45,253 nt of DNA. Source: Candidatus Portnoybacteria bacterium RBG_13_40_8 (GTDB lineage Bacteria > Patescibacteriota > Minisyncoccia > RBG-13-40-8-A). Positions 1 through 31,570 of the stretch are shown one piece after another (position 1 is the stretch's first letter; every line of letters begins with the position of its first letter). A program made the position numbers and the translations under genes. The notes beneath the pieces were generated by a model that worked only from the letters and a program-made list of their open reading frames with translations, did not search any database and had not been told where the DNA came from. Location: contig MHMT01000012.1 in the NCBI GenBank assembly GCA_001819435.1, positions 1-45,253 on the forward strand. Direction: 5' to 3'.

Positions 1-5
1 TTGAA

Positions 6-9000: not shown

Positions 9001-12000
9001 TATCTGTTGACGGCACTGCCTCAATCTCCGACAACTTCTATTTCGGTAATGATATGTTGTGGAGCAACAAAACAGGAGATTTGATGATGTCATCAAGTTC
9101 CTGGATATTCGGAGGAGATGCAACCACCAATTCATTTACATTTGAAGGCATAGCATCTTTATCCGGTTATCTGGATTTCGGCGCTCTCGCCACTCCCACA
9201 ACAGGATTAGCAGCAGGAAGAGTATTCCATTATGAAGATGATAATAGTTTATGGTATTACAATGGTAGCGACTGGCTTGATTTAACTGAAACCGGAGCCG
9301 GAGCAACAGGCATACCCGGAGGATCAGGCAATGAATTTCAATACCGGGTAGATGCTACCACCTTTGGCGGAGCAGCAAGTTTGGTCTACGGAAGCGCAAC
9401 CAGTATTCTTTCTTCCGCATCATGGGACATTTCCGGAACTAATTGGAATTTGGATGCTATCGCCTCAATCAGTGGGGGTCTATATCTTAGCGATGCTTAC
9501 TATAATACGCTGATCGGACCTGCTGATGTCGGCACTACCTCCACTGGTTCTTATAATATATTTATGGGTTATCGCGCTGGCCAGTATGCGGATGAAGTTG
9601 GCTCCGCAAATTTTATAGGGTATCAAGCTGGTCGATATGCTATCAATGCTGACAGTAGTGTTTTTATAGGCATTAACGCAGGTATGTATGCCTCTGACTC
9701 TGAGGATGGTGTTATTCTCGGGCAACAGGCAGGTATGTATGCAGAAGATTCTGATAAGTCTGTTTTTATTGGAAGTAATGCGGGTCAATATGCTTCATTG
9801 TCGCTTGACAGTGTCATGATAGGTGAAGAAGCAGGGCGTTATACTGGAAATGCCGATAATAATACTTATCTTGGAAGTTTTGCTGGCTTATACGCCGGCG
9901 AAGGAGATAATAATGTGTATGTTGGTTATGATGCGGGGATGAATGCTTCTGGTAGTGCCAATGTATTTTTAGGTTATCTAGCTGGTCGAGATGAAACCGG
10001 TTCCAATCTTTTATATATCGAAAACTACTACGATGGTACTGCCTGGTTAAACTTAACCAGCACATCAGCAGGAGGAACAATAGATGGCATAGGAACAGAA
10101 AACTACATTACTCTCTGGGATGATACTGATAGTTTGACTAATTCAATAATTTACCAAAGCGGAACTTCGGAAATACTTGTTTCCGGCAGTGCCACGTTTG
10201 ATGGTTATGCCTCTATTTCCGGAGACCTTACAGTCACTGGCGATGATGTATTATTCAGGCCGCTTGTCGATGGAGCTGATACGTTTACAATTTCGTCATC
10301 CGGATTTGTGGCTGGCGACGATTACGCAATATTCAGTGTTGACACGCAAAATATAGCAGTAGGAATCGGCACAACAGCGCCAAATGCTTTATTGCATTTA
10401 AAGTCCATAGCACCACAGATAATGTTCACTGATTCTGACGATGGGGGCGATGAGTTTACACAGTATCTTAATGGCGGCATACTTCTAGTTGGTTATAATA
10501 ATACCGATAGTGTATATAATATAGCAATAGGTTCCGATAATCTTGTTGGTATCAGAGATGTTACCCCTGATTATGGTTTGGAAGTCGTTGCCTCATCAGC
10601 TGATGGCTATTTGGCAGTTTCTTCTGACGATGACGAGGCAAAAAACGCCAACATATTCTTAATCGATGAAAACGGTTATGTGGGTATCGGCGACACCGAC
10701 CCCATCTATAAACTTTCCGTCGACGGCACTGCCTCGATCTCCGGAGGATTATATTTGAGCGATGCTTACTATAATACGCTTATCGGCCCTACTACGGTTG
10801 GCACTACTTCCACTGGTTCTTACGATATATTTATGGGTGATGCGGCTGGTCAGTATGCAGATAGCGTTGAGTATGCTAATTTTATCGGAGTCGAAGCTGG
10901 TCAATATGGAATAAATTCCGATTACAGTATTTTCATAGGAGGACTTGCTGGCAAATTTGCCTCAGATTCAAGACAGTCCATTTTTATCGGCGGGCAAGCC
11001 GTTGGTCTTTATGCTGAAAATTCCGATGACAGTATTATGATTGGTGGATACGGGGCTGGTATGTACGCTTCATTGTCTTCATATAGCCTAATGATTGGAA
11101 CTGATGCGGGCCAGTATGCCGGTAATGCTGACTACAATACTTATCTCGGAGCCCATTCTGGCCAATACGCCGGTGAAGGAGATAACAATGTATATCTAGG
11201 ATTTCAGGCAGGTCAAAATGCTTCCGGTTCTTCCAATGTATTCATAGGTTATGACGTAGGTTCAGATGAAACCGGTTCCAACCTTTTGTATATCGAAAAT
11301 TCTGCTGGCACCACCCCTCTCATCTACGGCGATTTCTCATCAAATTATGTTTCCATATCTTCAAGTTTATTCACCGACAATTTCTATACATCATACGCCT
11401 CAATCAGCAGTTATGCTGAATTCGGCCAGGCAGCTACTCCTTCAGCACCAGCAACCGGTCAGTTATTCCATGATACCGACAACCTCTTATACTACTACGA
11501 CGGTTCTGCCTGGCTAAACTTAGCCAGCACATCAGCAGGAGGAACAATCGATGGTACGGGAACAGAAAACTACATTACTCTCTGGGATGATAGTGATTCT
11601 TTGACTAATTCAATTCTTTACCAGAGCGGAACTTCGGAAATATTGGTATCAGGTAGTGCTACTTTTGATGGATTGGTATCCTTATCAGATGAATTTACCG
11701 TAGCTTCTGGTATGGATATCGGCGGAGGGGATTTGTATGTAGATGCGTATGATGGAAAAGTTGGAATTGGGACAATTGGTCCAATATCCAAATTAGAAGT
11801 TGAGAATGCTAACACGGGAGATAACCTGTATGGTCTTTATGTTGACCAGAATGAACCTGATGCATATGCAATTCACACTTATGCGGACGGAGGATGGGGT
11901 TTAAGAGTACAGAGTGCCCTTAATACTGGTACCTCGTATCTTTTAGATATAGAAAACAGCGATGGTTCAATACTCGCAGTTACGGCCGAAGGCAATGTTG

Positions 12001-14990
12001 GTATAGGAGATACGGTTCCTGGATACAAACTCTCTGTCGACGGCACTGCCTCAATCTCCGGAGGATTATATTTGAGCGACGCATATAATAATGTACTTCT
12101 CGGACCCGCTAATATTGGCACTACCTCCACTGGTTCTTATAATATATTGATAGGAAATTCTGTTGGCTCAAATGCGGATGATTTAGATTATTCTACTTTT
12201 ATCGGGTCATCCTGGACTGGTCAATATGCGGGAAATTCTGATCAAAGTGTTTTTATGGGATATTTTACGGGCACCTATGCTTCAGATTCTGGTGGTAGTG
12301 TTTTTATGGGAACCAGCGCAGGCGCGTATGCTGAAGATTCTGATTGGAGTATCTTTATTGGTAATAATGCAGGCCTTTTTGCTTCAATGTCGACATACAG
12401 CACAATATTGGGTGCTGGCGCAGGTGTATGGATTGGTGATGCTGATTACAATACTTATCTCGGCGGTTATGCGGGTCAATACGCTGGCGAAGGCGATAAT
12501 AATGTGTATGTGGGATACGGAGCAGGCCAAAATGCTTCCGGCAGCGCCAATGTATTTTTAGGTTATCTGGCTGGTCGCGATGAAACCGGTTCCAACCTTT
12601 TGTATATCGAAAACTCTGCTGGCACCACACCTCTAATCTACGGCGATTTCTCATCAAATTATGTTTCCATTTCCGATAATCTATATATCTCCAACAATCT
12701 CTTTGTTGACGGCACAGCTTCCATATCCATAGCTTCAATATCTCAATATGCAATTTTTGGTGATATTGCTACTCCATCATCACCAGGTCTGGGCATGGTC
12801 TTCCATGATACCGGAGATAATGAATTATTATATTATGACGGCACTGGATGGCAGAATCTGGCAAGTCCCAGCGCCAGCGGATTATCCGGCGGTTTACAAA
12901 ATTATATCGGTATCTGGAATGGCACGGACAGCATGACTTACGATACTGAATTCTACTGGGATACTACCAACAACTGGCTGGGTATCGGCGATATTACTCC
13001 TGATGCAATGTTGGACGTCAATGGCGGCGCTTCAATATCAGAGGATTTCTCGGTTGGCGATTCCTTATTCTATGTCAATGTTGGCTCTTCTTCCGTGGAT
13101 ATAGGTGCTGCCGGTTCAGATGTATATATCGGTACAGAAGGAGATACCTCCACAATCAATTTGATTATTGAAGGCACTGGTAATCTTGGTATCGGCGATA
13201 CTACTCCCGACTGGAGATTATCGGTTGACGGCACGGCTTCTGTTTCCGGCAATGCATATTTCCCGAATACGCCCAACGTTACTGATTTAAGAACCGATGG
13301 CAGCGGTATGTTATATGACGCTTCTGACATGCGCTTAAAGAAAAATATTACTGATATCGATAATGCTTTAAGTAAATTGATGTCTTTGCGCGGCGTGACC
13401 TACAATTGGAAAACCCTGGAAGAAGGCAATGACTACATTACTATGGACGGTACGATAATGCATATGGGCTTTATTGCTCAGGAAGTAGCGAGCAGTTCTG
13501 TCTCCGAATTAGCCTATAGCCATACAAGATCTGGCCAGGAAATCTGGGCAGTGAGAGAAGGTGAAATGACGGCTTTACTAGTTGAAGCAATCAAAGAAAT
13601 GAACAGTATTATTGATTTATCCGATGCCCCGATTGATTCTGCTTCTTTAACCATCAGTCAATTGGGTAATGTCGGCATCGGCGGTACTGCCTCTATCTCC
13701 GGAGATTTGTATGTTGGTGGTTTAGCCACCGAATCAGCCGCGTTTGTCTATGTTGATACCGAGGGCAAATTACACGCCGGCGATGCTTATCAGGATTTGG
13801 CCGAATTTATGCCTTTGGCTTCTCAAAGTTTTGAAGCCGGTGATGTAATCACTTCCCGACTGGCCACTGACGAGGAAAAAGCCAATGGATTGACTACTGA
13901 ACCGTTTATCGGAGTAAAATCATCTACTTCTTATGACCAGAATTTATTGGGAGTAGTTTCTTATTCCGATATTCCGGCTTTGGGAACCAAACTGAACAAT
14001 AACTACTTGCCGATTTCTTTGGCTGGTCGTGTGCCGGTTAAAGTTTCCACTCAAAATGGAGCAATTAAGGAAGGCGATTATCTTACATCTTCTACTATTC
14101 CGGGTGTAGCCATGAAAGCCACTAATGCCGGTCCTGTTATCGGCAAAGCGCTTGAACCATATGCAAATCCTGACCCAGCAGTTGTGGGCAGAATTTTAAT
14201 GTTCGTGAATTCAACCTGGTACGGTGGCAAATCATCAGAAATTGTGATTAATCCTGACGGAACGGTTGATGACAAAGTGACAGTTGAATCCGGAGATTTC
14301 TTTGGGAACCTGACTGCGAGCTTAAGACAATTGGGCGTGGATATTGCCGATGGTGTGATTAAAGCCACTAAACTGGTAGTTAATGAAGTTAAAACCAAAG
14401 TATTAAGAATCTCGGTTGAAAAAGATAAAGATGCTACTGTTGGCACAGCCATAATCCCAGCCCAGCAGATTGAATTCAGGGTAGAAAATAGTTTGGTGGA
14501 GGCCAATTCCAAGATATTTATAACCTTTACCGCTGATACAGGTGGCAGAACCTGGCACATTTCGGAAAAAGTTGCCGGAAACGGGTTTACAATTCGCTTA
14601 AGCGATGTCACGCCCGAAGAATTGAGTTTTGATTATTGGATAGTTCTTGTCGAAGGACAAGATCGCGGATCTACGCAGATTGACCCTGCTTCGCAGGATA
14701 CGCAGACAGACGCAGAGCCCTACTGTGGGGATGGGATACTTTATGCGGGTGAGGAATGTGATGACGGAAATTTGATTGATGGAGATGGATGCGATGCAAC
14801 TTGCATGACAGAAGTTGTGAGTGAAGAGCCATCTTCACCTTCTGGCGAAAATGAAGAGCAAGCGCCGGTTGAGGAAACTACGCCACCAATTGAAGAAATC
14901 ACACCGCCAGTGGAGGAAATTGTCGCACCGACAGAAGAAACAACTCCGTCATCTGAACAAGGCACATCGACAGAAGAAACAGTAATTTAA
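6..14990 (+). CDS. Giant repetitive surface/fibre protein, 5'-truncated by the window; YadA-like 17-aa head repeats, S74 chaperone domain, DUF4215-like Cys motif, Pro/Glu/Thr-rich tail
   Basis: 4994-aa ORF open to the window edge; repeated xxFIGxxAGQYAxxSxxS units; SDMRLKKNITDIDNALSKLMSLRGVTYNWK...GFIAQEV matches S74/endosialidase chaperone; CGDGILYAGEECDDGNLIDGDGCDATC. Confidence 0.9.
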   Translation: MGTGLFYVNTGSSSVQFGGTSTTSFVGPVSISEDLDVGSGQLFVDNSSGFVGIGSVSLAADAILTVRQQADSQGIKIFGYDDGDTRYGHMYMDSNNDFYIRTDTTSTHIIFSAGGSNTLMMDGDGDFQVGQSSYMARLINSQSGGTPVFSFSSDEDTGIGQMGPAVADFDADTLSLRGGGIALMQLGEYGNLPFVGIGTAATTSYTFAVDGTASISDDFYVGDNLLTLDVSEASVSSTGKWKLTTTETTGEGFYIDASSVTTGNGLLIEVDGTAMTSGKALQITRDGASMFNIGEWGDIYAAGQFSGSYLTMTSTTASYFTGPLGIGTTTPSTELSIVGTASISEDLWASGAFQFGGGELEATQSYSRLGGNDTGHGLDNAYDLLISGMLEVDGMTYFDGGTTFGSTASVTSDFSVGDSLFYVNVGTQSYQFGGTGTASFAGDIDMEGDLNVGNNDLYIDSSTGYVGIGTGASMSAKFNVAGTSTDNAYFFYNNADVGDTTNGQSLYVYRRAAEGDEYLRMYVDDSAEAIIETSMANLKFNTGGATIENWGPVNIGTNWYGSGVNYFITQYGYITAASTQKYIQWQVSDTTDTFNLTRQDDYIVGFNIGMPTSISDNLDVDGIVSISDGLYVDTFTSISDDLSVASSGYTIGDDYGPTLYIDTVNDYVGIGTTAPTTKLYIRGTDPEITLYESATGAIMSIQQGQAFGIVGPESASDLSLQTGGGSKIYIQHSGSYVGIGTYYPSVELSILGTASISQDLWASGAFQFGGGEITATASYSRLGLNNTGHGLDNAYDLLISGMLEVDGMTYFDGGTTFGSTASITGDFSVGDSLFYVNVGTQSYQFGGTGTASFVGPVNISQDLNVSEGDLFVDDSTGYVGIGTTNPLKKLSVSGNISGTQFDDYEDSSYYINPSAGDVSILVAGNVGIGTKSPDSLLDVAGQIIASSSYFTGLTQLTHASVSDDLELMGVASISASSVLFRPETNSTTFLQMASAAFVAGDDYPIFNVDTQNGRVGIGTAAPDSKLTISGSGTQNLRIISTDYNDAGVILQRGTYGTDAYSDWFIYDSGGTLKLDSYQSSSQNTRMTILTTGEVGIGDTAPGYTLSVDGTASISDNFYFGNDMLWSNRTGDLMMSSSSWIFGGDETTNSFTFEGIASLSGYLDFGALATPSTGLAAGRVFRYEDDNSLWYYNGSDWLDLTETGAGATGIPGGSGNEFQYRINGTTFGGAASLVYGGATSILSSASWDISGTNWNLDAIASISGGLYLSDAYNNVLIGPSTVGTTSTGSYNIFMGDAAGTYADEVSYGTFIGQNAGQSAINADYSFFAGWNAGQYASNSSDSFMVGRTAGQYAEDSYNSIFIGNWAGRYASQSTYSVMIGEQVGDYADDVDYSVFLGTNTGQYAGNSDNSIFIGNSAGQYASESGYSVFTGVYAGQYAENSYNSIFAGNWAGRYASQSIYSIMIGEQVGDYADDVDNVVFLGRLAGQYAADADNSIFMGQEAGQHASESQYSVFMGRDAGQYAKDSQYSVFIGDWSGQYASGSSFTFMSGQSAGADAADADNSIFMGQDSGAYAGYLDESIFMGHLAGTYASESSYSYFIGGAAGQYASISNNSVMVGYGAGQYFGTDNSADGRVTFIGDNAGNSAIDSDYSVMIGPGAGQYASESGGSVFIGSQTGDYAQNSDDSVFIGDWTGRYASLSTETVLVGPYAGDYAGDVDYGVFMGTGAGGYAINSDNSTFVGPWAGQSASESVSSVFIGIGAGQYAEDSDNSVFMGNGTGSYASLSTGTTMIGGAAGYYTGDADYNTYLGGYAGQYAGEGDNNTYIGYQAGENASGSSNVFIGFDAGSDETGSNLLYIENSAGTTPLIYGDFTNNYVSISNDLYTAGNLYTNGTASISGALTVDGTATSSFAGTIHIFKAESGIEANEYSDDFIIEANGDAGMSILTPDSSAGFINFGSPGGDVGAFLEYSYNSDNFGIGTNETGGRLIFYTDYYIEAMRIDANGDVGIGDTDPTYKLSVDGTASISDNFYFGNDMLWSNRTGDLMMSSSSWIFGGDATTNSFTFEGIASLSGYLDWGAIATPSAYAGRMFYSEENNSMWVYSGGWLEWGGGGGGGADSDWTINVNDMYSAVSGNVGIGDSVPDYKLSVDGTASISGGLYLSDAYFNTLIGPAVGTTSTNSFNIFMGDSPGQYADSVEYANFIGFYAGQYGINSDYSVFMGYWAGRYASDSYSSVFIGDAPGAYAEDSDYSVFIGTVAGLYASLSRESIFIGPEAGRYAGNADYNVYLGSEAGTYAGEGDQNVYLGYQAGRNASGSYNVFLGNQAGFNETGNDKLYIENSSGATPLIYGDFSSNYVSISTNLFTDNFYTSYASISSYAEFGQAATPSAPATGQLFHDTDNLLYYYDGTAWLNLTSTSAGGTIDGIGTENYITLWDDSDSLTNSILFQSGTSEILVSGSATFDGTASFSGDTTIGNNLFFADISEASISVAGAIEATGMILGNNIKTDTDLANLYLGTGIGSTTTSSYNIFIGDFTGAEADGASGSTFIGRQAGRYAVNTDTAVFIGGYAGQYASESNYSTFLGYQAGRYAEFSNGSTFVGQYAGYIASQSPNSNLLGNYAGADADNIDEVVFNGYMAGRFAGDSGYSTFIGSHAGEYASDSIDATFIGYAAGQYAEDSDWATFVGYNAGQYASLTLGSVMLGPGAGQYVGNADYDVYLGDSAGRYAGEGVNNVYIGYRAGEYASGSGNVFIGFDAGSDETGSNLLYIDNSNITTPLIYGDFSSNYVSISNDLYTAGNLYINGTASISDDFYVGNDSLFFDLSADTFYSSSSWGIGGTGLAFNLDATASISGDLTVTGDDVLFQPYTNGTDSFIIASSGWASGDDYGPLFNVNTTAASISMNGDLAVFKDFNVASGAIQHDYSSGITYIDSLNMGALSFDTDAGVVSWVDMPVATTAASIIESYTAQLDGNPMITVYGLTDGSGGVTSLGVGIGDTAPSYMLSVDGTASISDNFYFGNDMLWSNKTGDLMMSSSSWIFGGDATTNSFTFEGIASLSGYLDFGALATPTTGLAAGRVFHYEDDNSLWYYNGSDWLDLTETGAGATGIPGGSGNEFQYRVDATTFGGAASLVYGSATSILSSASWDISGTNWNLDAIASISGGLYLSDAYYNTLIGPADVGTTSTGSYNIFMGYRAGQYADEVGSANFIGYQAGRYAINADSSVFIGINAGMYASDSEDGVILGQQAGMYAEDSDKSVFIGSNAGQYASLSLDSVMIGEEAGRYTGNADNNTYLGSFAGLYAGEGDNNVYVGYDAGMNASGSANVFLGYLAGRDETGSNLLYIENYYDGTAWLNLTSTSAGGTIDGIGTENYITLWDDTDSLTNSIIYQSGTSEILVSGSATFDGYASISGDLTVTGDDVLFRPLVDGADTFTISSSGFVAGDDYAIFSVDTQNIAVGIGTTAPNALLHLKSIAPQIMFTDSDDGGDEFTQYLNGGILLVGYNNTDSVYNIAIGSDNLVGIRDVTPDYGLEVVASSADGYLAVSSDDDEAKNANIFLIDENGYVGIGDTDPIYKLSVDGTASISGGLYLSDAYYNTLIGPTTVGTTSTGSYDIFMGDAAGQYADSVEYANFIGVEAGQYGINSDYSIFIGGLAGKFASDSRQSIFIGGQAVGLYAENSDDSIMIGGYGAGMYASLSSYSLMIGTDAGQYAGNADYNTYLGAHSGQYAGEGDNNVYLGFQAGQNASGSSNVFIGYDVGSDETGSNLLYIENSAGTTPLIYGDFSSNYVSISSSLFTDNFYTSYASISSYAEFGQAATPSAPATGQLFHDTDNLLYYYDGSAWLNLASTSAGGTIDGTGTENYITLWDDSDSLTNSILYQSGTSEILVSGSATFDGLVSLSDEFTVASGMDIGGGDLYVDAYDGKVGIGTIGPISKLEVENANTGDNLYGLYVDQNEPDAYAIHTYADGGWGLRVQSALNTGTSYLLDIENSDGSILAVTAEGNVGIGDTVPGYKLSVDGTASISGGLYLSDAYNNVLLGPANIGTTSTGSYNILIGNSVGSNADDLDYSTFIGSSWTGQYAGNSDQSVFMGYFTGTYASDSGGSVFMGTSAGAYAEDSDWSIFIGNNAGLFASMSTYSTILGAGAGVWIGDADYNTYLGGYAGQYAGEGDNNVYVGYGAGQNASGSANVFLGYLAGRDETGSNLLYIENSAGTTPLIYGDFSSNYVSISDNLYISNNLFVDGTASISIASISQYAIFGDIATPSSPGLGMVFHDTGDNELLYYDGTGWQNLASPSASGLSGGLQNYIGIWNGTDSMTYDTEFYWDTTNNWLGIGDITPDAMLDVNGGASISEDFSVGDSLFYVNVGSSSVDIGAAGSDVYIGTEGDTSTINLIIEGTGNLGIGDTTPDWRLSVDGTASVSGNAYFPNTPNVTDLRTDGSGMLYDASDMRLKKNITDIDNALSKLMSLRGVTYNWKTLEEGNDYITMDGTIMHMGFIAQEVASSSVSELAYSHTRSGQEIWAVREGEMTALLVEAIKEMNSIIDLSDAPIDSASLTISQLGNVGIGGTASISGDLYVGGLATESAAFVYVDTEGKLHAGDAYQDLAEFMPLASQSFEAGDVITSRLATDEEKANGLTTEPFIGVKSSTSYDQNLLGVVSYSDIPALGTKLNNNYLPISLAGRVPVKVSTQNGAIKEGDYLTSSTIPGVAMKATNAGPVIGKALEPYANPDPAVVGRILMFVNSTWYGGKSSEIVINPDGTVDDKVTVESGDFFGNLTASLRQLGVDIADGVIKATKLVVNEVKTKVLRISVEKDKDATVGTAIIPAQQIEFRVENSLVEANSKIFITFTADTGGRTWHISEKVAGNGFTIRLSDVTPEELSFDYWIVLVEGQDRGSTQIDPASQDTQTDAEPYCGDGILYAGEECDDGNLIDGDGCDATCMTEVVSEEPSSPSGENEEQAPVEETTPPIEEITPPVEEIVAPTEETTPSSEQGTSTEETVI
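3841..5580 (+). repeat. Array of about 31 17-aa (51-nt) YadA-like head repeats, block 1 of 6
   Basis: Manual segmentation of translation: IFIGNSAGQYASESGYS / VFTGVYAGQYAENSYNS / IFAGNWAGRYASQSIYS ... Confidence 0.85.
13323..13625 (+). other. Peptidase S74 / intramolecular chaperone domain within the giant ORF
   Basis: SDMRLKKNI (Ser-Lys region), LRGVTYNWK, GFIAQEV, LLVEAIKEMN motifs recognised by eye. Confidence 0.8.
14664..14716 (+). repeat. Dispersed ACGCAGAT/palindrome element, copy 1, in frame in the giant ORF
   Basis: cgcggatctacgcagattgaccctgcttcgcaggatacgcagacagacgcaga. Confidence 0.85.
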
Positions 14991-15827: not shown

Positions 15828-16187
15828 ATGACCATGAATAAAAATAATTACGATTTAGAAGAAAGAACCGCGAAATTCGGAGAAGATATTATTGAATTTT
15901 GTAAATCTATAAATCAAGACGCTATTACTAAACCGATTATTAGCCAATTGATTCGTTCGGGAACGAGCGTAGGAGCTAATTATATGGAAGCTAACGCCGC
16001 TGCTTCTAAAAAGGATTTCAAAAACAAAATATTTATTTGCAAGAAAGAATCTCAAGAGACCAAGCACTGGTTAAGAATGATGGCGAAATCTAATCCGGAA
16101 AAAACAGAAGAAATACGTAAGTTATGGAAAGAATGCCAGGAATTAACTCTAATTTTCGGAAAAATCGTTTCGTCATTAAGAAAGTAA
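15828..16187 (+). CDS. Four helix bundle (S23 / 23S rRNA intervening-sequence-type) protein
   Basis: 119 aa; QLIRSGTSVGANYMEANAAASKKDFKNKIFICKKESQETKHWLRM is family-typical. Confidence 0.85.
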   Translation: MTMNKNNYDLEERTAKFGEDIIEFCKSINQDAITKPIISQLIRSGTSVGANYMEANAAASKKDFKNKIFICKKESQETKHWLRMMAKSNPEKTEEIRKLWKECQELTLIFGKIVSSLRK

Positions 16188-16397
16188 TTTGAAATTAGGT
16201 TATTCGAATTTGAATCAAAATTCAAAATTAAAAATTCAAAATTAAGCCCAGCATTTATTAAGCCGAAAATTCGAATTTCGAATTTCGAATCAATTTTAAA
16301 TGAATTAATTTCAAATTAAAAATTAGTCGTGTTTCAAAATTAAAAAATTAGATAATTCAATCAAAATTCAAAATTAAAAATTAGAAATTAAAGCCAA
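16188..16397 (+). repeat. Heptamer-register intergenic repeat (about 30 units)
   Basis: tttgaaa ttaggtt attcgaa tttgaat caaaatt caaaatt aaaaatt caaaatt ... Confidence 0.8.
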
Positions 16398-21600: not shown

Positions 21601-23101
21601 CATTGGTACTTTGACGGTGACAATGCAAATTGACCTTGCTGCTGGCACTTTACATATGAATGGTGCCGATAATGTAAGTCTTGCCGGAAATTTTTACACT
21701 GGTTCCAATGGCATCTATACTAAAAGCACAGGTACATTTACTTTTAATAAAAACGGCACCGCACTGTGGGGAGACTACAGAGGGACAAAATCCGATATGG
21801 GCGCAGTGGTAATTGACGGCGGTGGTTCGGCTACAACCGTTAATCTTCTTCAGAGCGTCAAGGCAACAAGCATAAACATTACTGGCAGCGACACGTTTGC
21901 TCCCAATGGTGCGTATACCTTGACTTTAACCGGCGCTGGCGCGGCTTTTACGAACTCTGGCACTTTTACTTGTTCTACTAGCACAATTGTTTATGAAGGA
22001 ACATCAGCTACTACTGTGGCCGCGTTAAACGGCACAAACCATTATTATAATCTCACTGTTGGTTTATCTACGGATACTGGCACGTTTTCTTATACTGCTG
22101 ACGGAGAAATTGAAGCATCGGGTTCAATGACTTTAATTGCCGGTTCTTCGGGCGTACATACTTTTGATATGAGCACCTATAATTTATCCGTAGGCGGCGG
22201 CGCAGCCAGTACCGGCGGAATAGCGGTTCCTGCTGGAACTGTATTTACTCAAACTTCGGGAACTACCAAAGTATATTCTTCCAGCGGCTCGGCAACAATC
22301 GGTGGCACAGGCACAACCAAATTTTATATTTTTCAAATCGGCAATGCTTCAGATGGCGCTACTTACACATTTAATTTAGGTGGAGACATAGGGGCATCGA
22401 GCAGTTTTACTCTTGCGGCCGGAGCTAGTCATGTTTTAGGCTTATCTTCTTATGAATTCGGGGTTTGGGGAAATTTTACCCTTGGCACAAGCGCCAGTTT
22501 AAGCGCCCAGACCGGGACTTTGAACTTTGGTAATAACACTTCCATGACCCTGACTTGTTCTACTGGTTGTGAGCCGTATAACCTGACTATTAATAAAACT
22601 GCAGCCGGAGATTCGGATGACAATGTTACTTTGGGGGCCGACCTTGTTGTTAGAAATATTTTGACCATTACTGATGGGGAGTTAGTTCAAGGGAATAATA
22701 ATGTTACAGTTGAGGGCACAAGCGCGGTTTCGGTCGCTGCGGCCGGAAAATGGAACAATATCGGCACTGGTGATTTGACTTTAGGCGGCACTTTTGCCAA
22801 TTCCGGCACAGTTGTTTTCAATACCAGTAATAATGGCTGTACCGGTGGCGGCATAGCTGATGATATCGCAATTACTTCTACTGCCGGCGGCACGCAAAGA
22901 AACTGGACTTCAACCTCACCGATTCAAATGTTTAATGTTTCAGTTACCGATATGACCAGCACTGCGGACATTATTGCTTATTCCAGCACCTTCAGTAATG
23001 TCGGTCCCAACTGGGCCCTTGTCAAATGCAGTGATTATTCTACGCCCTATAACAGGATTAAAGGCAGTACCAGAATAAAAGGAGGAACGAGGATAAAATA
23101 A
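18635..23101 (+). CDS. Large Gly-rich surface protein (GTG start), N-terminal TM, C-terminal RIKG(S/G)T repeats
   Basis: 1488 aa; TM near residues 15-35; poly-Gly tracts 19950-20790; beta-rich TGTFTF-type repeats; ends NRIKGSTRIKGGTRIK. Confidence 0.8.
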   Translation: MPENFKKLIKTKKTPIIIGTILAIFVAVFLIGLISTSLSGGSAIKVVSAQNVFQSDETPQFIFIYKKQANIFNRILVSIKNLFSSENKELETTVRIFNNYGQQIDDLNPQVKQEPNGKFTVDLDHSRFQQELRPGKYKMKFEIKDPSNSSGQVATFEQDFRWGVLAINTNKSIYMPNEEVYLQFAALKDNGKTVCNANLRLQIQTPNSKTQILSTNDGTIKYSGECKGDNVTNVPDYFAYYNVSKKGKYEMKLINLDNGFEITDYFEVRDSVEFDVERSGPTRVWPYAKYEIKIKIKANSDFQGEIVETVPMTFAIEEKLGAKQEPNMDNYTKTITWQTEIKKGETKEFIYTFDAPNVSPYFYLIGPLKMYQRESAYPEGENQRLSAVFAEQRQWQIAADAETEVYITYDETPNGYSCGSNCFLVPEDWNSASNSVEVIGGGGGGGDGSNKYGGGGGGGGAYARGVNLSFTAAAQVDFGVGASGSGGSGDGNGTAGGDTYFNALTFAACETLGSASGGGVGCVGANGGGFGYGGNTMTGGTGGFSVVGNDIVASGGNGGLGCGATAAGGGGGGGGGAGGPKGDMLGNNGGIGAGDGSPSLGGGGGGGGGGTNGAAPTQSGNPMTCGSYAVGTDVGGVGGANWAGNGAGAGGDPNGTEGTVGGGGGGGDDGGTGNVGGAGTEWTASYGSGGGGGGGGDGMTGGYGGKYGGGGGGGEACTAATCYGAGGLIHIAYTPAVKTISGNCKKVNQSDNCAVCTGCVKAAIEGVVDGASGNIDASGVWTITPATTLAVDDVIAVFINDQAVASRAVAVTRYNGSSNVSGMQLYAQHLVIGSNDNRTASNSDLALYDYSSSGGDADLFFDVNASNQLTGCIVDGCESMELYIMASNKYTPSSTSATFVEIHDIEIDGTFDMTLGTGANYASISGSWNNDSVFTAGDSTIFFIASDSDITGIPEVVSASAGSTNSFYNLTFGDSATSSLTGHWDSAGDIGTLTVTMQIDLAAGTLHMNGADNVSLAGNFYTGSNGIYTKSTGTFTFNKNGTALWGDYRGTKSDMGAVVIDGGGSATTVNLLQSVKATSINITGSDTFAPNGAYTLTLTGAGAAFTNSGTFTCSTSTIVYEGTSATTVAALNGTNHYYNLTVGLSTDTGTFSYTADGEIEASGSMTLIAGSSGVHTFDMSTYNLSVGGGAASTGGIAVPAGTVFTQTSGTTKVYSSSGSATIGGTGTTKFYIFQIGNASDGATYTFNLGGDIGASSSFTLAAGASHVLGLSSYEFGVWGNFTLGTSASLSAQTGTLNFGNNTSMTLTCSTGCEPYNLTINKTAAGDSDDNVTLGADLVVRNILTITDGELVQGNNNVTVEGTSAVSVAAAGKWNNIGTGDLTLGGTFANSGTVVFNTSNNGCTGGGIADDIAITSTAGGTQRNWTSTSPIQMFNVSVTDMTSTADIIAYSSTFSNVGPNWALVKCSDYSTPYNRIKGSTRIKGGTRIK
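19746..19796 (-). repeat. Dispersed ACGCAGAT/palindrome element, copy 3, inverted, in frame in the Gly-rich ORF
   Basis: reverse complement reads ccgcagataaacgctgattttccccttcgggatacgcagattcacgctgat. Confidence 0.75.
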
Positions 23102-23274
23102 ATTGACCTAATTGCTCTAATTGACCCAATCTAGAGAATTAACCTAATTATTCTAATTGACCTAATTAACCTAATCAAATCCCAAATCCCAATAACTAAA
23201 TCCCAAATTTAGACATTAGGCATTTAGGCATTGGGCATTGATTAGAATAATTAGAAATTAGGTTAATTAGAAAT
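23101..23274 (+). repeat. Nonamer then heptamer-register intergenic repeat
   Basis: aattgacct aattgctct aattgaccc ... then aaatccc aaatccc aataact aaatccc ... gaaatta ggttaat tagaaat. Confidence 0.75.
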
Positions 23275-23323
23275 TTTAAAACAAGTAGTTTTTGCTGTTT
23301 GTTTTTTTATTTTGACTTTTTGT

Positions 23324-23334
23324 TATGGTAGAAT
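23324..23334 (+). promoter_or_regulatory. Extended -10-like TATGGTAGAAT, 6 nt before ATG
   Basis: tatggtagaatgtgtttATG. Confidence 0.5.
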
Positions 23335-23340
23335 GTGTTT

Positions 23341-23733
23341 ATGCTAGCAAAACTGGAAAAATATTTATTCTACGCCTTTCTTTTTTTAATTCCCCTGCAA
23401 TTGCGAGCGACGATTTCTTGGCAGGGGAGCGAGTGGGATTCTGTTTTTTTATATTTAACCGATTTATTATTAATCGGCTTTTTATTTTTCGCGATTATCA
23501 ATAAAAGAATATCGTTCAGAAAAAGCGGTATTCTTTTATATTTATTTTTGGGACTTGCTTTAATCTCCATATTTGTTAGTTCGGATAAAGGGGTTAGTGT
23601 TTATCGCTTTATAAAATTACTGGAATTCGTAGCTCTATACATATATATGTGTAGTCAATTCAAAATTCAAAATTCAAAATTCAGACAATTTTATCTGTTA
23701 TTTTGTATTCGGCTGTTTTCCAGGCAATTTTAG
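23341..23733 (+). pseudogene. 5' fragment of O-antigen ligase/polymerase-like membrane protein (frameshifted; possibly phase-OFF)
   Basis: Hydrophobic ORF in frame 1; continues as the next ORF in frame 0 after (CAAAATT)3. Confidence 0.7.
23661..23681 (+). repeat. (CAAAATT)3 tandem heptamer at the frameshift in the ligase-like gene
   Basis: caaaattcaaaattcaaaatt read directly. Confidence 0.95.
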
Positions 23734-24737
23734 CCATTGTCCAGTTTTTTAAACAATCGAGTTTGGGTTTGAAATTTATTGAAGCCGGTCAATATCTACC
23801 TGGCGCGCCGGGAGTGGCTACTTTTATTTCCGGCAACGAGAAAATTATGCGTGCCTACGGCTCTTTTTCTCATCCCAATGTCTTGGCCGTATTTTTGTTG
23901 TTGGCTATTTTTTGTTTTTATTATTTATGGATTAAAGGATTCAATGGTCCCCGGTCCCCGGTTACTAGTTACTTGTTACCGGTTACTAGTTACTTATTAC
24001 TGGTCTTTGGATTATTTTTGACTTTTTCCCGCGGAGCAATTCTGGTTTTTCTGTTTATTAGTTTTACATTTCTCTTAACCAGATTTTTTCAGTTGCGGCA
24101 ATTATATCATACCGAAGAAAGATTGCTCGCCGGGAAAAAATTGATGATTTTAGCTTCATTTTTCGTGTTTTTTTCTTTAATCAGTGGTTTGATTGTCCTG
24201 CCCTACTTTAAAACCCGCTTTACGAAAATTTCTCTTGAAGAAGAAGCGATTGACCTCCGATTTTTTTACAATAAAATGGCTCTGTCTATGATAAAAGACA
24301 AGCCGTTTTTGGGAATCGGTATCGGTAATTTCGTTAATTTTTCCCGTAATTATCCGGCATTTTTAAGAGCAGCCGCCAAACTTGCCGCTTCCGGCGGTTT
24401 GACCGGTGGACAGGTTCCCGAATGGATTTATCAGCCAACCCACAATCTTTATTTATTGATTGCTTCGGAAATCGGAATTTTGGGCGCGTTAATCTTTTTA
24501 ATATTTTTATTTAAGAAATTTACTTACGGGGTTGGCCAGATTTTTAAAAATCTCAACGAAATCAATCCTTTGTTTTTTCTTTTTATCGGATTTTTGATTC
24601 TTGCCTTAAGCGACCATCTTTTCTGGACCCTACAGTCGGGAGGAATAATATTTTGGCTATCTTTAGCGTTATTAGAAAATCCAAACTATTTCAAAATCCA
24701 AACTATTTCAAAACAAATCCAAAATCCAAATGTTTAA
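23682..24737 (+). pseudogene. 3' fragment of O-antigen ligase/polymerase-like membrane protein (Wzy_C-like)
   Basis: SFSHPNVLAVFLLLAIF, LFLTFSRGAILVF, PFLGIGIGNF, YQPTHNLYLLIASEIGILG are family-typical. Confidence 0.75.
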
Positions 24738-24799: not shown

Positions 24800-26155
24800 A
24801 TGCAATATATTTGCGATTTTCACATTCACTCCAAATACTCCCGCGCTACTTCTAAAGAAACAAATATTGAGAATCTGAACAAATGGGCGCGCATCAAGGG
24901 CGTTGATGTTTTGGGAAGCGGAGATTTTACCCATCCACTTTGGCTGAAAGAATTGAAAGAAAAGCTGATTCCAGCCGAAAAAGGGCTTTTCCGTTATAAA
25001 GATAAAAAAATAAAAAATAATCATAATGGATTTTTGATTAACGGAAACAATCATCAGCCGGAGACGAGATTTATTCTGACTACCGAGATTTCCAGTATTT
25101 ATTCCAAGGGAGGGAAAACCAGAAAAATTCACAATATAATTTTTGCTCCTAATTTTGAGGCAGTGGAAAAAATTAACACCCATCTGGGATGGATTGGTAA
25201 TTTAAAATCCGATGGTCGGCCGATTCTGGGATTGGATGCCAAAGAATTGGCAAAAATTGTTCTGAATATTTCCGAAGATTGCTTGATTATTCCTGCCCAT
25301 GCTTGGACGCCCTGGTTTTCTATTTTCGGTTCATTTTCCGGATTTGACTCGATTGAAGAGTGCTTCGAAGAATATACAAAATATATTTATGCTATTGAAA
25401 CCGGATTATCAAGCGATCCGGAAATGAATTGGCAGTTAAGTAAATTGGATAATATTACCTTAATTTCTAATTCCGATGCTCACAGTCCCGCTAAAATTGG
25501 CCGCGAGGCCAATATTTTTGAAGGCGAGAAAATAGATTATAATTTAATTGCTAACGCAATTAAACGCAGATCCACGCAGATTGAACCCCGACAAGTCGGG
25601 GATACGCAGATAAACGCAGAAAAAGAGTTACGATTGGTTAAAACCCTTGAGTTTTTTCCCGAAGAGGGAAAATATCATTGGGATGGCCATCGGAATTGCG
25701 GAATTGTTTTCAGCCCCGATGAATCGTTTAAATACAATAATGTTTGCCCGCGCTGCGGAAAACCATTAACCATCGGAGTAATGAACCGAGTCCGCCAGCT
25801 GGCTGACCGGCAAATAGGCGAAAAACCAATAAATGCCATTCCTTTTCAAAGACTGATTCCTCTGGAAGAGATAATTGCCGATGTAATTGGCATTGGTGTA
25901 GGCACTAAAGGAGTTAATGAACATTATAAAAACTTGATTAAGGTTTTTGGCAACGAATTCAAGATTTTATTGGAAGTCAGAAAAGAACAAATTGCCTCTG
26001 TCAGTTTGCCGGAGATTGCCGAAGGCATAGACAAGGTAAGACAGGGCAAAATTTCAGTATCCCCCGGTTATGATGGAGAATATGGGAAAATCAGTATTTT
26101 TGGCGATAACGAAGAAAGACCAAAAACCATCGGCAGCCAAGAAACCCTTTTTTGA
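24800..26155 (+). CDS. Endonuclease Q-like PHP-domain nuclease
   Basis: CDFHIHSKYSRATSKE PHP motif, SNSDAHSP, EFFPEEGKYHWDGHRNCG, CPRCGKPLTIGV zinc-finger part. Confidence 0.8.
   Translation: MQYICDFHIHSKYSRATSKETNIENLNKWARIKGVDVLGSGDFTHPLWLKELKEKLIPAEKGLFRYKDKKIKNNHNGFLINGNNHQPETRFILTTEISSIYSKGGKTRKIHNIIFAPNFEAVEKINTHLGWIGNLKSDGRPILGLDAKELAKIVLNISEDCLIIPAHAWTPWFSIFGSFSGFDSIEECFEEYTKYIYAIETGLSSDPEMNWQLSKLDNITLISNSDAHSPAKIGREANIFEGEKIDYNLIANAIKRRSTQIEPRQVGDTQINAEKELRLVKTLEFFPEEGKYHWDGHRNCGIVFSPDESFKYNNVCPRCGKPLTIGVMNRVRQLADRQIGEKPINAIPFQRLIPLEEIIADVIGIGVGTKGVNEHYKNLIKVFGNEFKILLEVRKEQIASVSLPEIAEGIDKVRQGKISVSPGYDGEYGKISIFGDNEERPKTIGSQETLF
25565..25620 (+). repeat. Dispersed ACGCAGAT/palindrome element, copy 2, in frame in the EndoQ-like ORF
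   Basis: cgcagatccacgcagattgaaccccgacaagtcggggatacgcagataaacgcaga. Confidence 0.85.
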
Positions 26156-26157
26156 AT

Positions 26158-26248
26158 TAATCTCTAATCTCAAAATCCTAATTTCTAAACAATCTCAAAT
26201 ATCAAAATTCAAAAATTTTAGAGATTAGAGATTAGAAATTAGAGATTT
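26158..26248 (+). repeat. Heptamer-register inverted repeat (13 units)
   Basis: taatctc taatctc aaaatcc taatttc ... gagatta gagatta gaaatta gagattt. Confidence 0.85.
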
Positions 26249-26951: not shown

Positions 26952-27575
26952 ATGGGCAGATTCTCTATCAATAAAATAATTCGAATTCTCATCGGTGCGG
27001 ATTTTATCTTTCTTTCCGCTCTGGGTTTGATTACCCCGATTTTCGCTGTTTTTATCACCGGACAAATTAAAGGCGGAACAGTGGAGGTAGTTGGATTTGC
27101 CGCAGGTATTTATTGGATACTCAAATCTTTTCTGCAGTTGCCCATCGGTAAATTTTTGGACAAAAGAAAAGGAGAGAGAGACGATTTATGTTTTCTGGTA
27201 ATTGGTTATCTTATAGTGGCTTGCGTTCAGTTCGGTTATATTTTAAGTTCCTTGCCTTGGCATGTTTATCTTTTAGAAGGTATTTATGCCTTTGGTATGG
27301 CAATGGCTATTCCTGCTTGGCCTGCTATATTTACTCGTCATATCGACAAAGGCAAGGAAGCTTTTGAGTGGAGTCTAGAGAGCACTGCTTTAAGCTTTGG
27401 CAGCGGAGTTACCGGAGCGCTGGGCGGAATTTTGGTTGCCAAATTTGGTTTTAATTTAGTGTTTCTAGTCGCTGGTTTTATAGCCATGTTTGGAGGATTT
27501 CTTCCCTTGTTTATTGTTAAAGATGTTGAAAAGAAGGGAGATCATCATTTGAGGTTTTGGAGAAAAAGATTATGA
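26952..27575 (+). CDS. Half-size MFS-type transporter
   Basis: 207 aa, about 6 TM; ILKSFLQLPIGKFLDKRKGERD MFS loop motif. Confidence 0.7.
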   Translation: MGRFSINKIIRILIGADFIFLSALGLITPIFAVFITGQIKGGTVEVVGFAAGIYWILKSFLQLPIGKFLDKRKGERDDLCFLVIGYLIVACVQFGYILSSLPWHVYLLEGIYAFGMAMAIPAWPAIFTRHIDKGKEAFEWSLESTALSFGSGVTGALGGILVAKFGFNLVFLVAGFIAMFGGFLPLFIVKDVEKKGDHHLRFWRKRL

Positions 27576-27982: not shown

Positions 27983-29719
27983 ATGGATAATAAAGAGATA
28001 GCGAAAATTTTATATGAAATTTCGGAATATTTGTCTATGGAAGATGTGCCGTTTAAGCCAAGGGCTTATGAAAGAGCAGCCATGGCTATTGAAGAATTGG
28101 AGAATAGAGTAGAAGATATTTATAAAAAAGAAGGACTGGAGGGATTAATAAATATACCGACTGTCGGCAAGGGCATTGCCGAGAGGATTAAAGAACTGAT
28201 AAGGACCGGTAAAATCAGATATTACGAACAATTAAAGAAGAAAACCCCGGTTAAAGTTGATGAACTTACGGCTGTGGAAGGGGTCGGTCCAAAGATAATC
28301 AAGAGATTATACAAAGAAATTGGCGTAAAGAATTTAATCGATTTGGAAAAAGCGGCTATGGCCGGAAAAATCAGAAAACTGGAAGGCTTTGGTCAAAAAA
28401 GCGAGGAGAATATTTTAAGAGGAATAAATTTTCTCAAGAGTAGCGGTGGTCGTTTTGTTTTGGGGTTTATAATGCCGGAAGTAAGAGAGATTGAAAAAAG
28501 AATTGGTGATTTTCCTGGCGTTAAAAAAGCAATTATTGCCGGTTCAATCAGAAGAATGAAAGAAACAATCGGTGATGGCGATTTATTGGTTACCGTTTCT
28601 TCTCCGCGGGCAGGACAAAAGATAATGGAGATTTTCGTGAATATGCCTGAAGTAATGCACGTTTATAGTCAAGGACCGACAAAATCTTCGGTAAGACTGA
28701 AAAATGGTATGGATTTTGACCTTCGGGTTGTGCCGGAAGAAAGTTTTGGCGCAGCTTTGCAGTATTTTACCGGCAGCAAAGACCATAATATTGAATTAAG
28801 AAAAATTGCCATTAAAAAAGGATTAAAACTTAATGAATATGGAGTGTTTCGGGGTAAAAAAATGATTGTCGGCAAAAACGAAGAGGAGGTTTATAAAATT
28901 TTGGGCTTAAAATGGATGGAGCCGGAATTGAGAGAGAATGCAGGAGAAATCGAAGCTGCGCAAAATAATAGATTGCCGAAAATAATCGGCTATAACGACC
29001 TCCAAGGGGACTTGCAAATTCAGACAAATTGGACCGATGGCTCAAATTCCATTGAGGATTATGTTGAAGAAGCAATAAAATTGGGCTTGGAATATATTCT
29101 GATTACCGACCACACCAAAAGCCTGGCAATGACTCATGGATTGGATGAAAGAGGGTTGGCGAGACAGGGAAGGGAAATAGATAAAATAAATTCAAAGCTC
29201 AAAGCTCAAAACTCAAAACTTAGGGTGTTGAAGGGAGCCGAGGTTAATATTTTAAAGGATGGTCGACTGGATATCAAAGACGATACTTTACATAAATTAG
29301 ACGTAGTGGCTATTGCTGTTCATTCGGGATTTAAAATGTCCAAACGCGATATTACCGAAAGAATTATTAAAGCGATGAAAAATCCTCATACTGATATTTT
29401 GTTTCATCCCACGGGCAGGTTAATCAATCAAAGACCACCATATGAAGTGGATGTGGAAAAAATAATCAGAGTAGCCAAAGAAACTAAAACAGTCTTGGAA
29501 GTTAACGCTTATCCGAATAGGTTGGATTTAAAAGACGAATACGCGCGCATGGCTAAGAATATGGGTGTGAAATTATCCATTGACTCGGACGCTCACCACG
29601 TTTCGCATCTTCATTTTTTGGAATTCGGCATTGCTCAGGCTCGTAGAGGATGGGTGGAGAAAAAGGATGTGATAAATGCCTGGCCAGTAGAAAAAATGTT
29701 AAAAATGCTGAAACATTAA
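27983..29719 (+). CDS. polX: DNA polymerase X family with C-terminal PHP domain
   Basis: 578 aa; HhH region, GSIRRMKETIGDGDLLV, DHTKSLAMTHGLDE, SIDSDAHH. Confidence 0.9.
   Translation: MDNKEIAKILYEISEYLSMEDVPFKPRAYERAAMAIEELENRVEDIYKKEGLEGLINIPTVGKGIAERIKELIRTGKIRYYEQLKKKTPVKVDELTAVEGVGPKIIKRLYKEIGVKNLIDLEKAAMAGKIRKLEGFGQKSEENILRGINFLKSSGGRFVLGFIMPEVREIEKRIGDFPGVKKAIIAGSIRRMKETIGDGDLLVTVSSPRAGQKIMEIFVNMPEVMHVYSQGPTKSSVRLKNGMDFDLRVVPEESFGAALQYFTGSKDHNIELRKIAIKKGLKLNEYGVFRGKKMIVGKNEEEVYKILGLKWMEPELRENAGEIEAAQNNRLPKIIGYNDLQGDLQIQTNWTDGSNSIEDYVEEAIKLGLEYILITDHTKSLAMTHGLDERGLARQGREIDKINSKLKAQNSKLRVLKGAEVNILKDGRLDIKDDTLHKLDVVAIAVHSGFKMSKRDITERIIKAMKNPHTDILFHPTGRLINQRPPYEVDVEKIIRVAKETKTVLEVNAYPNRLDLKDEYARMAKNMGVKLSIDSDAHHVSHLHFLEFGIAQARRGWVEKKDVINAWPVEKMLKMLKH
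29192..29219 (+). repeat. (TCAAARC)4 tandem heptamer inside polX
   Basis: tcaaagc tcaaagc tcaaaac tcaaaac read directly. Confidence 0.95.
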
Positions 29720-29844
29720 AATCTCTAATCTCGAAATTCCAATCTCTAAACAATCTCAAATACCAAAAAACCAAAACACTTTTGAATTTTGAAATTTGAG
29801 ATTTGAACTTATTTAGAAATTAGAGATTAGGATTTAGAAATTGA
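29719..29844 (+). repeat. Heptamer-register inverted repeat (18 units), related to 26158-26248
   Basis: aaatctc taatctc gaaattc caatctc taaacaa tctcaaa ... aaattag agattag gatttag. Confidence 0.8.
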
Positions 29845-30254
29845 AAAATTTTTTGAATAAAAAATTTTATATATTTTGGCTGCCAGTTATATTATGGGCG
29901 GGAATTATATTCTGGCTTTCTTCAATTCCTGATTTGGAAAGCGGATTAAAGCAGGATTTTATTTTGCGAAAAATTGCCCATATTTTGGAATTTGCCATTC
30001 TGACATTTTTACTAATCCGAGCAATAAATCAAGAAAATTTATCTATCAAGAAAACAATAATTTTCTCTTTGATTATTGCTCTTTTTTATGCTCTGTCTGA
30101 TGAATATCATCAGACTTTTATCGGAGGTCGCCAAGGGGCATTGAGAGACGCCGGGATTGATAGTATCGGTATTTTATTGACTGGTTTAGTGTGGTATATT
30201 AAAAAGAGGAACCCTGTACCGCAAGAGGTGCAGGGCGGGGGTCGACAAAATTAA
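29841..30254 (+). CDS. VanZ family protein (TTG start uncertain)
   Basis: FWLPVILWAGIIFWLSS...SDEYHQTFIGGRQGALRDAGIDSIG. Confidence 0.8.
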   Translation: MKNFLNKKFYIFWLPVILWAGIIFWLSSIPDLESGLKQDFILRKIAHILEFAILTFLLIRAINQENLSIKKTIIFSLIIALFYALSDEYHQTFIGGRQGALRDAGIDSIGILLTGLVWYIKKRNPVPQEVQGGGRQN

Positions 30255-31045: not shown

Positions 31046-31097
31046 AATTTTGAATTTAGAATTTGTTTAGAAATTAGAAATTAGAAATTAGAAATTT
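31042..31097 (+). repeat. Heptamer-register repeat between smpB and ssrA (8 units)
   Basis: ttagaat tttgaat ttagaat ttgttta gaaatta gaaatta gaaatta gaaattt. Confidence 0.85.
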
Positions 31098-31116: not shown

Positions 31117-31475
31117 GGGGGTGAAGGGTTTCGACAGAAAGTACTTTTAAAATAAGCAAGTCGAGGATGTCAGTTAGCTCGTAAAAATCTGGCAAAATAT
31201 AAGTGCAGTAAATTTTGCACCCGCTGTAGCTTAATACCTATAGCAATCTTAATCACCAACTCTCAATAGGTGATTAAGGTTTCATAGTTCCTCATTTGAG
31301 GTATTGAGATAAGTGTTTTAGTCTGTCCAAGCTAAAAGACTGATAAAAATTGGACTAGATTATTTGGATTTTTGTCTGTTTTATATTCATATAATCGAAT
31401 TCAATAAACAGAATATGCTTGTAGATTTATTTTAAAAAAACTTTTTGGATAGGAGTTCAACTCTCCTCACCTCCA
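31117..31475 (+). ncRNA. ssrA: tmRNA
   Basis: 5' GGGGGTGAAGGGTTTCGAC; 3' AGGAGTTCAACTCTCCTCACCTCC; 7-bp acceptor pairing; tag ORF GCA GTA AAT TTT GCA CCC GCT GTA GCT TAA. Confidence 0.92.
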
Positions 31476-31477
31476 CA

Positions 31478-31570
31478 TAAATTTTTCGCTTCGCTCAAAA
31501 TTTGAGTATTTAGTATTTTGTAGTTTGTATTTTGGGCGAGTGAACTATTTTTAAAAAAGCGAAAAATTTA
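31478..31570. repeat. 14-bp perfect inverted repeat bounding a 93-bp segment next to ssrA
   Basis: TAAATTTTTCGCTT (31478-31491) / AAGCGAAAAATTTA (31557-31570). Confidence 0.8.

Follow-up and report, generated by a model that had tools for sequence, protein, structure and literature searches.

Rickettsia palindromic elements, ~100–150 bp in length, lie in frame within many unrelated genes of a reduced genome, essential genes included. Short tandemly repeated repetitive (STRR) sequences were reportedly described by Vioque, in 1997, in cyanobacterial rnpB (cited in PMC2858038). In most surveyed genomes, heptanucleotides outnumber every other category of long simple repeat, as far as can be taken from the mention of that survey in a later paper (Mrazek 2007, cited in PMC4679880). 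Heptanucleotide units described in cyanobacteria and Xanthomonas include GGGNATC (PMC4692102) and TAACTGA (PMC4679880), and the repeats of Xanthomonas and Nostoc show a preference for four units (PMC4692102). In E. coli K1, the heptamer AAGACTC mediates phase variation of neuO; 3–53 units are found, 20 being the most common number, and 65.6% of 64 genomes carry the gene in the off state (PMC13001214). The glycan gene icaC of S. aureus contains a short tetranucleotide repeat that varies, and reversible switching has been demonstrated there (PMC4117637).

The window analyzed here is a stretch of 45,253 nucleotides, contig C12 of the 690-kb, 33-contig draft genome of Candidatus Portnoybacteria bacterium RBG_13_40_8. 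An initial annotation of its sequence proposed that a CAAAATT repeat interrupts an O-antigen-ligase-like gene and acts as a phase-variation switch. The repeat itself is as described: three perfect tandem copies of CAAAATT occupy positions 23661–23681, within a heptanucleotide array (AATTCAA/CAAAATT, forward strand) that TRF delimits at 23657–23683 with a period of 7, 3.9 copies and a 100% match. The gene lies directly after genes for surface proteins (a LamG protein and a 1488-aa protein), again in agreement with the annotation, and the array is about a quarter of the way into it.

Two ORFs on the forward strand share this gene. The upstream ORF, in frame 1, runs from an ATG at 23341 to a stop at 23731–23733 and encodes 130 aa as read; it is the N-terminal part of the Wzy_C-family ligase gene, and its residues up to ~103 (ending in LYIYM) are homologous to relatives. 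The C-terminal part (23655–24737) is in frame 0, where no stop occurs between 23655 and the one at 24735 and the first listed start is TTG 23703; the remaining frames across the gene are full of stops. The claim that these are two pieces of one protein is upheld by alignment to relatives of the same family, in which the ligase is a single uninterrupted protein of 433–469 aa. Homology to these intact relatives continues in frame 1 through LYIYM and resumes in frame 0 from TILSVILYSA, so the frame changes within ~23650–23687 (2.7% of the gene), on the array, where the annotation had placed it. The codons for the conserved LYIY and ILS are separated by 41 nt, or 2 mod 3, and therefore a change of +7 or −14 nt would join both parts in one frame, as had been calculated. 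Put differently, at the present array length the downstream frame is 2 nt over a multiple of three, or 1 nt short. The frame break is thus real in the assembly, and it is single.

Apart from this break, the gene appears sound. The downstream part matches Wzy_C (PF04932, E = 5.7e-19, 68.8 bits against a gathering cut-off of 31.7), which secures the assignment to O-antigen-ligase-like proteins. It retains the conserved motifs RAYGSFSHPN, TFSR and YQPTHNLYLL, and none of 2000 shuffles of this part was free of stops. The annotation had allowed for other disabling mutations in the gene; none is visible, and alignment to relatives revealed no second lesion in either half. Gene decay by several lesions was ruled out, both halves being otherwise intact and conserved. 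Accelerated evolution of the ligase was also considered and rejected: the ligase and its intact relatives show similar identity to the outgroup genomes G002 and G005, which gives no sign of long relaxed constraint. Judged from these comparisons, the frame break is probably young.

Another reading is that the gene is expressed across the break. Full-length protein might be made if ribosomes underwent a programmed −1 frameshift, or RNA polymerase slipped, within the array; alternatively, the halves might act as a split protein. Passage from frame 1 to frame 0 is indeed a −1 shift, the array contains repeated AAAA, and the two frames overlap by ~75 nt. On inspection, however, the frame that is read lacks a slippery heptamer of the canonical X XXY YYZ form, and runs of A do not exceed 4 nt. 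Moreover, the relatives examined encode the ligase in a single frame, and for the second half neither a good start codon nor a ribosome-binding site is apparent. We consider recoding or a split protein highly improbable.

The array at the break is one of several short repeats in this gene; the annotation mentioned neither the other two arrays nor how common heptamer arrays are across the genome. A second heptamer array region, in frame, spans 23946–24001 (forward strand; 2.4 copies of GGTCCCC followed by GTTACTA-type units) and sits in a loop where the relative G003 has a heptamer array of different sequence. Near the end of the gene, a short-repeat tail at 24676–24730 (forward strand) consists of a 17-nt unit, AAAATCCAAACTATTTC, followed by AAATCCA, and it lengthens the C-terminus past those of four aligned family relatives. 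At the sites of the break array and of the 23946–24001 region, the G003 ligase has heptamer arrays too, again differing in sequence but in frame. The ligase of G001, the closest relative as judged by the neighboring PHP protein (81% identity), has no arrays. Other in-frame repeat-like peptides occur in G003 (SAYAKASADDGS and SACSASKLSCVAGG, in L008:163–1500 on the minus strand and at the L008 ligase C-terminus), which suggests that genes also contain short elements of a second class. Upstream of the window ligase, a possible −10 element found by sequence inspection (TGG-TAGAAT, 23329–23334, forward strand) ends 6 nt before the ATG, and G003 has GGTAAAAT in its place; this element suggests that the ligase may have its own, near-leaderless promoter.

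Several other features of the window were recorded. An uninterrupted ORF of 4995 codons (3–14990) is open at the window start and likely encodes a giant surface protein, toward the C-terminus of which lies a cysteine-rich acidic repeat. Downstream of the ligase lies a gene for a PHP-domain/TIGR00375-like protein (24800–26155, forward strand), which is its conserved downstream neighbor in relatives. An MFS-family ORF of 207 aa (26952–27575) matches the first half of the MFS profile, and a small ORF begins directly after it, near its stop; the 207-aa ORF is either a half-size transporter or a truncated gene. The tmRNA gene (31117–31476) is flanked on both sides by heptamer arrays (31067–31096 and 31505–31534). 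Finally, intergenic heptamer-type arrays form imperfect inverted repeats at 16185–16391, 23101–23291, 26158–26247 and 29720–29846; 26158–26175, for example, is 94% complementary to 26217–26234. Such inverted arrays could form hairpins between genes.

The CAAAATT motif is not confined to the ligase. The window contains 22 matches to (CAAAATT)3 with up to 3 mismatches, against 0.04 expected from dinucleotide shuffles of the window, so the motif is non-random yet far from unique. A scan for local matches at lags 4–15, performed on 420 kb of the genome including the window, identified 31 strong period-7 arrays. Seven was the only enriched short period: periods 4–6, 8–13 and 15 gave 0–2 strong arrays each, period 14 being excepted as a multiple of 7, and shuffles of a 199-kb subset gave no strong period-7 arrays. 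Within the 420 kb, these arrays are denser outside ORFs (0.36 per kb) than inside (0.04 per kb), and 15 of the 31 fall within ORFs. Of the 64 arrays at all sampled loci, 55 have 4–5 units after rounding, and the longest measures 47 nt. Enrichment of a 7-nt unit over other periods and greater density in intergenic DNA are both STRR-like properties. The RNase P RNA locus, inspected as a parallel to cyanobacterial STRR, showed just a weak heptamer-like stretch.

Within genes, the arrays extend to housekeeping functions. The exact (CAAAATT)3 21-mer occurs at three loci in the assembly, namely the ligase, tatD and lepA. In the latter two, the CAAAATT array is longer and in frame, reaching 32 nt (4.6 units; C4:1480–1511) in tatD and 37 nt (5.3 units; C20:1307–1343) in lepA. 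Further in-frame arrays were found in metG, leuS (two), tsaD (four, in L043:17348–18511 on the minus strand), ksgA and polX, as well as in an aminotransferase-V gene and a GT4 gene. The polX example lies in the window, at 29192–29220 (forward strand) in an intact PolX-type DNA polymerase gene (27983–29719). With tatD, lepA, metG, leuS, tsaD, ksgA and polX among their hosts, the arrays are not particular to surface or defense genes. In G003 and G004, the same variable loops of tsaD hold arrays with other units, and lepA of G003 has a different array-like peptide in the same loop; tsaD of the relatives G001, G002 and G005 has no arrays. Overall, the arrays form a dispersed class that returns to tolerant sites in proteins.

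The housekeeping arrays also bear on whether the ligase break is an artifact of assembly, consensus or sequencing, with the true majority allele having an in-frame number of units. The genome is a draft in 33 contigs, and tandem repeats are where consensus errors occur. However, the ligase array is merely 27 nt long, and the same assembly contains both an unbroken ORF of 4995 codons and longer arrays that remain in frame in housekeeping genes. Indel errors therefore appear to be rare in this assembly, and we regard an error at the ligase as quite unlikely.

Comparison with homologues, a check that the initial annotation had recommended, yielded results that speak against a switch. Heptamer arrays of many unrelated units are present in 12 of 29 intact ligase homologues (one of these, L024, is T-rich and weak), and all 12 array-bearing genes are in frame and intact; because the 29 were chosen by alignment score, which favors unbroken genes, and come from other species, this is a test at the level of the family. 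The arrays recur at sites corresponding to window residues ~57, 102–114, 204–210, 271–286 and 388–419, and the two heptamer sites of the window ligase are among them. Two of the recurrent regions are hydrophobic and probably transmembrane, and units such as TTGTTTA encode hydrophobic peptides there. In the intact homologues L020, L021, L026 and L031, (TTGTTTA)6, (CTGTTCT)5 and similar arrays code for segments predicted to span the membrane, near window residues 271–286 or 406–419.

We also looked for other broken ligases. Among the class-level matches listed, short frames away from contig ends were found only in the window ligase and in G154. The latter was rejected as another array-broken ligase, its short frame being due to an internal deletion and not to an array, and the remaining short-ORF homologues among the matches listed are at contig ends. 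As read from these predicted frames, off alleles are rare among ligase homologues. The genus is represented by one genome. Across the class, the gene is present in 135 of 293 genomes, which indicates that it is dispensable at class scale.

These observations permit an evaluation of the proposed contingency locus, in which slipped-strand mispairing at the CAAAATT array would toggle a surface-glycan ligase and the assembled allele would be off. One part of the proposal stands: a tandem repeat with a unit length not divisible by 3 lies in the reading frame, exactly at the break, with the rest of the gene intact. The gene is of a surface-glycan type and sits among surface-protein genes, and both heptamers (neuO, PMC13001214) and a low copy number (icaC, PMC4117637) have precedents. 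In addition, the sole broken gene that we found is one whose loss would be tolerable, as a selected switch would also give. The switch itself fares less well, given that similar arrays are in frame elsewhere. With 3.9 units, the ligase array is short beside the 3–53 (most commonly 20) of neuO, and unlike that of neuO it is not near the 5′ end. CAAAATT arrays with more copies occupy tatD and lepA, where frequent loss of frame would be costly; this makes a fast, selected switch less likely. The 12 of 12 array-bearing homologues in frame contrast with the 65.6% of neuO genomes that are off, and arrays of this class are not restricted to surface genes. We therefore view a contingency locus as unlikely.

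The explanation that we consider probable is that turnover of an STRR-like heptamer array in a tolerant loop put this allele out of frame, without the array having evolved as a fast switch. Heptamer arrays throughout the genome, including in-frame arrays in housekeeping genes, point to a genome-wide repeat that broke one gene and not to a purpose-built switch. According to this model, short arrays, typically of 4–5 units, would arise and turn over in intergenic DNA and at structurally tolerant protein sites, and selection would retain the in-frame ones in essential genes. The ligase array would occupy a loop before a transmembrane helix of a Wzy_C-family membrane protein, and at its present length the allele would encode only a 130-aa stub. 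Replication slippage may have added or removed units and so produced the break, or the array may have arrived with the wrong length. We infer that this happened recently and that the break represents either a tolerated loss or a low-rate variant of a dispensable surface-glycan gene, from which selection would not have removed the out-of-frame array length. Since a one-unit slippage event could bring the frame back, and icaC offers a low-copy precedent, a low-rate, reversible off state is possible.

A broader proposal, to which we assign about even chances, is that an active process in many Paceibacteria/Parcubacteria-type genomes keeps generating heptamer arrays of 4–5 units whose sequence constantly changes, and that selection preserves them in frame at a limited number of tolerant sites of essential proteins. 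As part of the same proposal, loops and even transmembrane helices would draw on such arrays as raw material, and alleles with a broken frame, like this ligase, would appear now and then. Were the ligase array a real switch, this would be a case of phase variation of a surface-glycan gene in a candidate-phyla bacterium, and a narrow literature search found none. The point that is broader and better supported is that heptamer arrays lie repeatedly in frame in essential genes of these reduced genomes, where they recur at loop and membrane-helix sites with unrelated unit sequences. A limited literature search found no description of in-frame heptamer arrays in essential genes of Paceibacteria/Parcubacteria, and these arrays are more interesting than the ligase break. 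They raise the questions of why the unit is seven nucleotides and how non-triplet repeats are tolerated in essential reading frames. They also advise caution: non-triplet repeats in such genomes should not be equated with contingency loci from one sequence alone.

How, then, does this locus compare with the systems described at the outset? As a predicted ligase, the protein resembles other members of the Wzy_C/O-antigen ligase family (PF04932), being polytopic with a domain score above the cut-off and conserved motifs, and it differs in being split by a frameshift. With icaC it has in common that a one-unit change in a short repeat of low copy number truncates the product of a gene related to glycans; whereas switching has been demonstrated for icaC, the ligase array is known here from one assembled sequence. 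Like neuO, the ligase has a heptamer array within the reading frame of a glycan-modifying gene, and the number of units sets the frame. In neuO, however, the array lies close to the 5′ end and two thirds of genomes have the gene switched off, while the ligase array is about a quarter into the gene and its homologues are in frame.

For the arrays as a class, the closest parallels are repeats that are dispersed through a genome. Like Rickettsia palindromic elements, they occur in frame in many unrelated genes of a reduced genome, essential ones included; unlike those elements, they are tandem, with a 7-nt unit, a length of ~30 nt and many unrelated unit sequences. With the STRR and heptanucleotide repeats of cyanobacteria and Xanthomonas they have in common the 7-nt unit, genome-wide dispersal, extragenic enrichment and a peak at around four units. 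They differ from the latter in that their units are AT-rich, varied and without a G-quadruplex motif, in belonging to a different phylum, and in that roughly one in two of the strong arrays is found in frame within a protein gene, essential genes again included. The repeat is thus of an ordinary kind, and its genomic habit is uncommon.
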